This document shows positions 32,377 to 44,173 of a stretch of 64,000 nucleotides of DNA, piece after piece (position 1 is the first letter of the stretch; each line of letters starts with the position of its first letter). The translations under genes were made by a program, and so were the position numbers. The stretch is from Cyanobium sp. FGCU52 (GTDB taxonomy: Bacteria; Cyanobacteriota; Cyanobacteriia; PCC-6307; Cyanobiaceae): the NCBI GenBank assembly GCA_024958715.1, contig JANWUS010000018.1, positions 1-64,000 on the forward strand. Direction: 5' to 3'. The notes under the pieces were generated by a model. The model saw nothing but the letters and a program-made list of their open reading frames with translations, made no database searches and had not been told where the DNA came from.

Positions 32377-33099
32377 ATGCCGTCCCTCCATCCCCTCCAC
32401 TCCAGACCATCCCCTCCCAACCACTTCAGCGCGAAGCGCTTGCTGACGCGGGCCCTGATGGCAGTTGCTCTGATTGGCGGAGGATCCTCCCTACTTTCGG
32501 CAGGCAGCGCACAAGCCGTTGCTGTTTCCTGTAACACCGACTTGTCATGGGAGGTGGGAGATAAGCGAATCTCCAATATCCTGTGCAGTGATTTTGAGGC
32601 CAACCTCAGGTTCGCTCAAGGTGGCTTAACGTATGACTTTGGAGCTCTATTCGATCCACTTCCGACAGCACCTGAAGAGGGGTGGATATACTACACACTA
32701 GAAGTCATTAATCCAGACCCGCTTGTGAATTTCACAAAAGTCGAATTAGACAGCGATTGCGATGATATCAGCGGAGGCGCTTGCAATGTAGTCAAAGACA
32801 TCTTTTACACGGCACTGGACGTTTCAGACACCACAACGATCTTTGCCAATAGAAGCACAGGCGACGAGTCCCTATCATCTCCGAACGGCGAACAAGTCTT
32901 TGGATCAATCACAGGCAGAACCATCTACGTTCTCGATTCCTGGGCCCCAGCTGCTCCGGCTGCACTTTCTGGGATTGAAAATGTTTACACCCAAACCTCC
33001 GAAGTCCCCGGCCCCCTGCCCGTCCTCGGAGCCGGCATGGCCTTCGGCTTCAGCCGCAAGCTGCGCCGTCGCATTCAGGGTCAGCGCGTCACAGCCTGA
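32377..33099 (+). CDS. Secreted protein with EVPGPLP-type C-terminal sorting tail
   Basis: A 240-residue exported protein. The N-terminus has a basic region and a Sec leader (ALMAVALIGGGSSLLSAGSAQA) cut after AQA. The body (about 48-205) is an AT-rich, beta-rich, Asp/Ser/Thr domain with paired cysteines (SCNTDLSW...NILCSDF). The last 32 residues, EVPGPLPVLGAGMAFGFSRK plus LRRRIQ, form a motif, a short hydrophobic span and a basic end, resembling PEP-CTERM-type sorting signals. The tail is GC-rich like the host, while the body is AT-rich. A relative with almost the same tail lies at 42968. An HpsJ-like gene follows. Surface anchoring by an exosortase-like enzyme is inferred. Confidence 0.7.
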   Translation: MPSLHPLHSRPSPPNHFSAKRLLTRALMAVALIGGGSSLLSAGSAQAVAVSCNTDLSWEVGDKRISNILCSDFEANLRFAQGGLTYDFGALFDPLPTAPEEGWIYYTLEVINPDPLVNFTKVELDSDCDDISGGACNVVKDIFYTALDVSDTTTIFANRSTGDESLSSPNGEQVFGSITGRTIYVLDSWAPAAPAALSGIENVYTQTSEVPGPLPVLGAGMAFGFSRKLRRRIQGQRVTA

Positions 33100-33123: not shown

Positions 33124-33151
33124 GGCCCCGCCTTCCGGTAGGGCCTTTTTT
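33124..33151 (+). terminator. Intrinsic terminator after the EVPGPLP-tailed gene
   Basis: GGCCC and GGGCC pair across a 12-base loop that can itself form a CC/GG pairing, followed by six T residues. It lies 25 bases after the stop and separates this gene from the HpsJ-like gene. Confidence 0.65.
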
Positions 33152-33202: not shown

Positions 33203-34081
33203 ATGACTGTCTCCCCAAGGCATTTCGATCAACGCTCAGAGACATCCCGACAGATCGCCTCCCAGTTCGGGCTTCTGGCCATCTGCCTGCTGATGCTTTA
33301 CGCGCTGGTGGTGCTGGCCGCCATCCTGCCGTTGCGGCTGCTGGATCCCGGTTGGCAGCTGAGGTTCACGCAGGCGCTGATCAACAACGGCTTCCTTGCC
33401 CTCCTCGGTCTGGCGCTGGTCCATCTGGCCGCCTATCTCGCCCCCTCCAATCCGGATCTGATCCGCCGCCGCAACGGCTTTGCCACCCTGGCTCTGGTGC
33501 CGGTGCTGGGCTTTCTGCTGCTGATCCCCCTGCAGGGCTATGCGGTGTGGCGCGGCATCAGCAACGCCAACAGCAGACAGAGCAGCCAGCTCCGCGAGGT
33601 GACAGGCAGGATCGCGGCCGTGCGGGAGGCAGTCAACAGATCCTCCAGCACCAACGACCTGCAACAGCGTCTGCGGAATCTGAGAGTGACACCCCTGGGT
33701 TCCGCAGAACTGGCCCAGCCCCTGCATGTGCTGCGCAAGACCATGTTGGAGACACTGGAACGAACGGAGATCCGCGCCGCAGACCAACTCAAGGGACTTC
33801 CAGCCTGGGGCCTGTGGCAGATCATCCAGGGGAGCATCCGTGCCGCCCTGTCGGCGGTTGTGCTGGCCGTCGGCTTCGCGGCGTTCTCCAGAAGCCGGGG
33901 GTCGATGACCCTGCTTCACAGCTGGCAGGCCTGGTTCCAACGGGGCAGGGGACACTCCCGAAGAGGCTGGCTGGGTCTTCCGAGCAGACCCAGCCGCAGC
34001 AAGACGCCTGCGTTCCTGAAAAACCTCACGTTCAGACAGGCCAGGACCGCAGTGTCGTCGCCGTCCAGAAGGGAAAGCTGA
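33203..34081 (+). CDS. HpsJ-like membrane protein
   Basis: A 292-residue membrane protein with four helices: IASQFGLLAICLLMLYALVVLAAILP, the FLALLGLALVHLAAYLA pair, LALVPVLGFLLLIPLQGYAVW, and a late AALSAVVLAVGFAAFS. Between helices 3 and 4 lies a polar coiled-coil region of about 90 residues (QLREVTGRIAAVREAVNRSS...). The layout matches cyanobacterial HpsJ-like proteins, described in hormogonium polysaccharide and cyanoexosortase-associated contexts. It directly follows an EVPGPLP-tailed protein, which supports that link. The basic tail after residue 245 is low-complexity. Family placement is from pattern memory, not a search. Confidence 0.5.
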   Translation: MTVSPRHFDQRSETSRQIASQFGLLAICLLMLYALVVLAAILPLRLLDPGWQLRFTQALINNGFLALLGLALVHLAAYLAPSNPDLIRRRNGFATLALVPVLGFLLLIPLQGYAVWRGISNANSRQSSQLREVTGRIAAVREAVNRSSSTNDLQQRLRNLRVTPLGSAELAQPLHVLRKTMLETLERTEIRAADQLKGLPAWGLWQIIQGSIRAALSAVVLAVGFAAFSRSRGSMTLLHSWQAWFQRGRGHSRRGWLGLPSRPSRSKTPAFLKNLTFRQARTAVSSPSRRES

Positions 34082-42967: not shown

Positions 42968-43747
42968 TCAGGCCAGTCGAGAGCCCTTGATGCGGCTGCG
43001 CAGCCGACGGCTGAAGCCGAAGGCGGTACCGGCACCAAGAAGGGGGAGGGGGCCGGGAACTTCCTCCGGCGGACCTGCCACCAGCACCTGGGTATAGGTG
43101 TTCTTGAAGCTATCGATGGTGGACAAATCGCCAACGAACCATTTGTCCGTCACGTAGATGCTGGTGAGCTGCTCCAGCCCTGCGGACTCCTGGGGGTCGA
43201 GTCGGTCGGACACCAGGGAAACAAAGGGAGTGATATCAGATCGATCGCGCCGAACCTGCTTGGTGACCGACGACTTGAGGTCCGCGCTGTTCGACTGATT
43301 GATGTCACTGTCCAACTGCACCGTATCGAGGGCATATCTTGGGTCGGTCACCTCAAGCAAGTAGCTGAAGCCAATGGAAGAGGAAGTCAGTCGTGAGGGG
43401 GAGAAATTGAAGTCGAGGCTGAAGAAGTCATTCTCGAAACCGGAGGGCGGAAATGCATTCCATTCAATCTCAAGAGTACCCCTACCGTCATCACCCAACT
43501 TAAGCTGGGAAGGATCACCGATGGTGATTTTCTTATCCTGACACTGGAAGGTGTCACCCTCGACCAGCTTTGAGAAAAGGATTGAGAAGGGATTGAGGGA
43601 TGGGGGCGTGCCACTGCCACAAGCGTTGTAGGCGGAAGGAGTGGCAGCCTGAGCGGAACCGGAGAAAAGCACGGAGCCCGGCACACCAAACAGGCTGATT
43701 CCCAGCAACAACTTTGGCAGGAATCCGGCATGCGGAAGCACTTTCAT
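42968..43747 (-). CDS. Secreted protein with EVPGPLP-type C-terminal sorting tail
   Basis: A 259-residue exported protein, with leader LLLGISLFGVPGSVLFSGSAQAATPSA cut after AQA. The body is AT-rich and beta-rich, with few cysteines (NACGSG and FQCQDK), and bears no close similarity to the 32377 protein outside the ends. The last 31 residues, EVPGPLPLLGAGTAFGFSRR plus LRSRIKG, match that protein's tail almost exactly. Start ATG 43747 has AAGAAAGAGG upstream; the track TTG at 43765 is unlikely. A strong hairpin terminator follows. Both proteins are likely substrates of one exosortase-like enzyme; no such transpeptidase was found in the window. Confidence 0.7.
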   Translation of the reverse strand: MKVLPHAGFLPKLLLGISLFGVPGSVLFSGSAQAATPSAYNACGSGTPPSLNPFSILFSKLVEGDTFQCQDKKITIGDPSQLKLGDDGRGTLEIEWNAFPPSGFENDFFSLDFNFSPSRLTSSSIGFSYLLEVTDPRYALDTVQLDSDINQSNSADLKSSVTKQVRRDRSDITPFVSLVSDRLDPQESAGLEQLTSIYVTDKWFVGDLSTIDSFKNTYTQVLVAGPPEEVPGPLPLLGAGTAFGFSRRLRSRIKGSRLA

Positions 43748-44173
43748 GGATGCCTCTTTCTTCAATATTTCAGCAGCAGTCTAATCAGCCAAGAGCCAAG
43801 GATAAGAGAATAAGTGCATCATCCATTGGGCAGCAACGATGCAGATCCGTAGCAAAGGCATCAACAGCGACAGATTCAGCCCGCCACCGGTTGATTCCAC
43901 GGACAATCCCCACTGGACCAGCGACAGACCAGAAGCACAAAACACGGAACATCTGCACATTCATTCTTCCTTGCTCATCAGGGTTGAAAGCCTGTGATTC
44001 AGAGCTCTGTGCTCCTCCCGCTCCTCGCTGCTCGACCGCGCATGCGTAGGGATCCCCTGACAACGCCGGGATCGGTCGCCGGTTCGGTAGCGGCCGGTAC
44101 GCCGCCCCGCGATCCGGTAGAAATGATGAAGAAGAACGCGTTTCCCAGGGCTCCCTCCGGGGGGCCGCACCCC
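43748..44173. other. Gene-poor AT-richer spacer
   Basis: This 426-base stretch upstream of the second EVPGPLP-tailed gene has lower GC than the surroundings in its first 290 bases. Small frames on both strands (43714-44049 and 43785-44063) lack ribosome sites, leader features or plausible domains. It probably carries the promoter of the reverse-strand gene and otherwise holds no feature that I can support. Confidence 0.5.

Follow-up and report, generated by a model that had tools for sequence, protein, structure and literature searches.

Pro-Gly-Pro variants of the PEP-CTERM sorting tail in Cyanobium sp. FGCU52 and their pairing with HpsJ-like genes around a single exosortase

Two secreted proteins with nearly identical C-terminal ends, encoded on opposite strands of one cyanobacterial contig, raise the question of whether they are handled by a common sorting system and which other genes take part in it. 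The window considered here is a stretch of 64,000 nucleotides from Cyanobium sp. FGCU52 (assembly GCA_024958715.1, contig JANWUS010000018.1, positions 1 to 64,000). Its relevant features are collected in Table 1, together with the exosortase that is encoded elsewhere in the genome.

Table 1. Features of the window, and the exosortase encoded outside it.
Feature	Position	Strand	Remarks
Tailed secreted protein 1, 240 aa	32377..33099	+	Stop at 33099; Sec-type leader ending LLSAGSAQA by reading
PEP-CTERM-like sorting tail EVPGPLPVLGAGMAFGFSRKLRRRIQGQR	33001..33087	+	Profile E = 6e-19; TIGR04155 19.4 bits, cut-off 21.6
Intrinsic-terminator-like hairpin and T-run	33124..33151	+	Between tailed gene 1 and the HpsJ-related gene
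Membrane protein of 292 aa related to HpsJ; tailed protein 1 is its probable partner	33203..34081	+	NF050013 and NF038305 matches
PEP-CTERM-like sorting tail EVPGPLPLLGAGTAFGFSRRLRSRIKGSR	42977..43063	-	Profile E = 4e-18; TIGR04155 19.4 bits
Tailed secreted protein 2, body homologous to protein 1	42968..43747	-	HpsJ-like gene not found nearby
Exosortase, the only one in the genome	G000:C17:1432-2352	-	Outside the window; PF09721 96.4 bits (cut-off 25.7)

The first protein ends in ...EVPGPLPVLGAGMAFGFSRKLRRRIQGQRVTA and the second, which most likely starts with the ATG at 43747 rather than with the TTG at 43765, in ...EVPGPLPLLGAGTAFGFSRRLRSRIKGSRLA. The nearly identical sorting tails reported by the earlier note are thus present as it described them, and these two are the only PGPLP-containing frames of the window with such an ending near the stop. 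Read by eye, both proteins appear to begin with a hydrophobic leader ending in SAQA. The AT-richness ascribed to the two genes was borne out as well, with 54.6% and 56.7% GC versus 71.0% in the window. Neither protein has a match in Pfam, and the predicted structure of the first (mean pLDDT of 33.5) was unusable.

The bodies of the two proteins, which had been taken to be unrelated and devoid of clear similarity, are in fact diverged homologues. The whole proteins align with E = 2e-21 and, once the tails are removed, the bodies still align with E = 4e-6 and 26% identity over 138 columns, sharing the motifs LEV..DP..V.LDSD and IYV.D.W...N.YTQ. A search with a two-row body profile recovered relatives in 16 of the 42 genomes of the genus, most of the inspected ones bearing the same tail. 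Such homology would suit a simple recent duplication, in which case a common tail would be uninformative on sorting, but the tails are far more alike than the bodies. Moreover, this reading is refuted by ten further tailed proteins of the same genome, most with other bodies and one of them a GDSL-type hydrolase (PF00657), so that we give it virtually no credence.

These additional proteins were retrieved with a profile built from six tails, which identified 12 tails in the genome with E-values from 2e-19 to 3e-6, the next match reaching only E = 0.9. All 12 copies are located at C-termini, which together with their scores rules out chance. The proposed tripartite plan of a motif, a short hydrophobic span and a basic end at the extreme C-terminus was seen in all of them, and nine positions (P3, G4, P5, L6, G10, S18, R19, R22, and R24) are invariant throughout. 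For most of the 12 tails the best curated match is TIGR04155 (cyano_PEP), although a single sister tail exceeds its cut-off (23.5 bits) and the window tails remain below it. Similarly, the window tails score below the 16-bit cut-off of TIGR02595 (14.2 for one of them) and two sister tails barely above (16.1 and 17.8). The literal Pro-Glu-Pro is absent from the 12 tails, all of which carry Pro-Gly-Pro; for this reason, and given the TIGR02595 score under the cut-off, we call the tail a variant and not a plain PEP-CTERM member. The tails are lineage-specific PEP-CTERM-like signals of the cyanobacterial type, in a VPGPLP variant.

Four other TIGR04155 matches of the genome (C10, C6:143049, C18:92994, and C53) were excluded from the tail count after inspection. 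The match at 1501 of the C53 locus (L009, G000:C53:178414-181479) belongs to a protein ending in VPEPLSAAGTVAAVTVSARLRRLRRRIRERDGSC with a literal VPEP motif, which may be a further substrate.

The tails and the bodies to which they are attached also differ in composition. Over the 12 genes, third-position GC is of 40-82% (mean 60) in the 150 codons that precede the tail and of 57-84% (mean 72) in the tail itself (Wilcoxon p = 0.012), compared to 89-94% in four neighbouring housekeeping-type genes. Given this lower third-position GC, the bodies seem to be of more foreign origin, or quicker to evolve, than the tails. In both window genes and in the other ten, the low GC of the bodies is as if these had been acquired, or had evolved apart from the tails.

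A sorting tail calls for an enzyme, and an exosortase-like gene was found both in this genome, in a single copy, and in nearly all genomes carrying the tail. The enzyme exceeds the cut-off of TIGR04178 (50.6 versus 23 bits), and its best score among all exosortase models is with TIGR03763, cyanoexosortase A, at 118 bits and below the cut-off of 150, which suggests that it is related to this subfamily. Cys201, Arg247, and His270 are invariant in all 55 relatives. The gene lies on another contig than the window, within an exopolysaccharide-type cluster that includes a CapD-like dehydratase and, by reading, glycosyltransferases as well as WecA-like, asparagine-synthase-like and polymerase-like genes. 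Directly behind it, a protein of 242 aa without match to any Pfam or NCBIfam model is encoded (L001:707-1435, minus strand), in the position that an EpsI-type accessory occupies elsewhere.

In a survey of 300 family genomes, 43 have both the tail and an exosortase, 2 the tail alone (85% and 88% complete), 11 the exosortase alone, and 244 neither (Fisher 4e-39, and 8e-19 when the genus itself is removed, kinship of the genomes being ignored in both). Among 390 genomes of the class, the strict tail, counted at E <= 1e-5 and apart from any looser relatives, was detected in seven, all belonging to this family. The midpoint-rooted exosortase tree separates 15 sequences behind a long, fully supported branch (clade II) from the rest (clade I). 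The tail is present in 37/38 genomes with a clade I exosortase versus 2/12 of those with clade II only, and thus goes with one kind of exosortase. The second, deeply separate clade, accompanied by its own group of HpsJ genes, is found in tail-less genomes (loci L049, L055, L060, L062, L064, L065, L067, L072, L074, and L075).

These distributions also bear on the idea that the tail stays uncleaved and serves as a membrane anchor, without any involvement of an exosortase, as a motif followed by a hydrophobic span and a basic end would likewise hold a protein in the membrane. However, an anchor has no need for nine invariant positions, Pro-Gly-Pro included, and the presence of the tail tracks one exosortase clade, which makes this explanation improbable. 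We consider it probable that the tailed proteins are sorted by the exosortase of the genome. As for the dedicated surface-anchoring pathway suggested by the earlier note, sorting with several substrates and an exosortase is supported, but it is of the known PEP-CTERM/cyanoexosortase kind, in a variant form, and not a separate pathway.

The most informative feature of the locus is a gene that the earlier note overlooked, which follows tailed gene 1 at a distance of 103 bases. Its product matches NF050013 (HpsJ_like_A), named at NCBI 'HpsJ-like protein, cyanoexosortase A-associated', with E = 1e-19 and 71 bits, under the equivalog cut-off of 140, and NF038305 (HpsJ_fam) with E = 4e-11 and 43.4 bits, under the cut-off of 60; it is therefore called HpsJ-related only. 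Pfam gave no match for this protein, whose predicted structure is all helical with a low pLDDT of 67.7. Profiles were used for the HpsJ-like proteins since pairwise BLAST among them is weak. In the HpsJ tree, the window copy groups, with support, with counterparts in four other genomes (G292, G208, G235, and G148), each of which is still located behind a related tailed gene, so that the pair is kept in five species. Identity to these counterparts is of 67-73% for the HpsJ-related protein and of 46-47% for the substrate.

The window pair is one of many. Twelve HpsJ-related matches were found in the genome (E <= 1e-4), and eight of its 12 tailed genes are followed on their own strand, at no more than 1 kb, by an HpsJ-like gene; the second tailed gene of the window is among the four without such a partner. 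Over nine genomes, an HpsJ gene lies less than 1 kb downstream of 35/118 tails versus 0.17 expected, and for 16 more tails an HpsJ gene is arranged differently at up to 2.5 kb. The three of these nine genomes that come from other genera account for 2/12, 0/17, and 0/8 tails, indicating that such pairing belongs mainly to the genus Cyanobium. The surroundings of the exosortase, out to about 4 kb, contain an HpsJ-like gene at 27/32 loci of other genera versus 2/23 in Cyanobium (Fisher 1.5e-8, kinship ignored). Outside the family, a VPEP-type tailed gene stands directly upstream of HpsJ in two of 20 chosen loci (L159 and L164), the exosortase being absent within the stretch examined, which suggests that substrate-HpsJ pairing extends beyond Cyanobium.

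Between the tailed gene and its partner, a stem-loop followed by a T-run (-13.0 to -23.1 kcal/mol) occurs in seven of the eight pairs of this genome and in all four orthologous pairs. In the window it precedes the partner start by about 50 bases, and a pattern scan of this stretch alone does not rise above its shuffles. We read the hairpin as an attenuator through which, with some read-through, the partner would be made in smaller amount than the substrate. It is possible that the tailed gene and its partner are instead two separate transcription units.

Tail-paired copies fall in one supported group of the HpsJ tree (39 rows, 97/91) along with most neighbours of clade I exosortases, two of which (G032 and G074) are placed apart, whereas a separate group (15 rows, 100/100) unites the copies found next to clade II exosortases; the HpsJ groups therefore largely coincide with the type of tail and the clade of the exosortase. 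Runs of a tail, an HpsJ and an exosortase gene are found in related genera (G067, G102, G032, and G074), and some HpsJ-like genes are solitary, including in genomes without exosortase. Both facts agree with a scenario that starts from an ancestral substrate-HpsJ-exosortase cluster, later duplicated and split, the HpsJ-like neighbours being relics of gene order that now serve exopolysaccharide synthesis without acting on the proteins encoded beside them. Nevertheless, many parallel pairs have stayed together while diverging deeply, and that of the window is retained in five species despite the divergence of its substrate, which leaves this scenario doubtful, though a serious contender. G067, with a genome of 1.7 Mb and 25% GC at the locus, holds the sole tail and the sole exosortase found in it within one three-gene run. 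In this AT-rich, streamlined genome, the tail, the single HpsJ-related gene and the exosortase lie inside a polysaccharide cluster (G067:C2, L068:4012-6092) and represent a minimal system.

Our best reading is that of a known exosortase sorting around which cassettes of a substrate and its private HpsJ-like partner were multiplied in this lineage, with one shared enzyme. Both tailed proteins would be exported by Sec, after which the tail, made of the Pro-Gly-Pro motif, a short hydrophobic stretch and basic terminal residues, would retain them at the inner membrane. The single exosortase would then cut them at the motif, and the cut proteins would be released or handed to the cell surface or to exopolysaccharide. 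This sequence of export, retention, cleavage and surface or polysaccharide delivery is assumed because the known system works so (PMC1569441; PMC12188702), and it has to be weighed against window tails (19.4 of 21.6 bits) and an enzyme (118 of 150) that score below the cut-offs of the closest named subfamilies. The private HpsJ-like partner may be a substrate-linked accessory of the exosortase, acting as adaptor or handover factor and produced in smaller amount than the substrate owing to the terminator-like hairpin between the genes; judged from gene pairing, this role falls just short of an even call. More tentatively, and rather below even, HpsJ-like proteins could be substrate-specific accessory exosortase subunits, with sorting in Cyanobium turned modular, so that portable cassettes of a tailed protein, a terminator-like attenuator and a private HpsJ-like partner feed one enzyme.

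The main interest lies in this substrate-HpsJ cassette. These pairs bear on how exosortases choose their substrates and on what neighbouring membrane proteins contribute, and the many parallel pairs located away from the enzyme are natural replicates for partner specificity. The tails further predict surface proteins in a widespread group of picocyanobacteria. In a literature search that covered few subscription papers, HpsJ was nowhere named together with an exosortase, nor Cyanobium with PEP-CTERM, and no description of a substrate-HpsJ cassette was found.

Compared to the PEP-CTERM/EpsH system (Haft et al. 2006, PMC1569441; TIGR02595, TIGR02602, PF09721), the present one likewise has several exported proteins that end in a tripartite signal and one Cys/Arg/His enzyme integral to the membrane, along with an exopolysaccharide gene context and co-occurrence over genomes. 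It departs from it by Pro-Gly-Pro in place of Pro-Glu-Pro, by window tails under the TIGR02595 cut-off and by a strict tail found only in this cyanobacterial family. Among curated models, most tails match the cyano_PEP family (TIGR04155) best, with 1/12 above its cut-off, but the window tails fall just below. In Nostoc punctiforme, deletion of cyanoexosortase B depleted PEP-CTERM proteins from the exoproteome and impaired motility and biofilm formation (PMC12188702); this is likewise a cyanobacterial exosortase, but of another enzyme subfamily and in a filamentous organism, and that study mentions neither HpsJ nor cyanoexosortase A. Finally, cyanoexosortase A (TIGR03763) and HpsJ_like_A (NF050013) are the best matches of the enzyme and the partner, and the two genes are neighbours in other genera. 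Here, however, both proteins score under the equivalog cut-offs, and in Cyanobium the HpsJ-like genes have multiplied, most of them lying apart from the enzyme and next to substrates.
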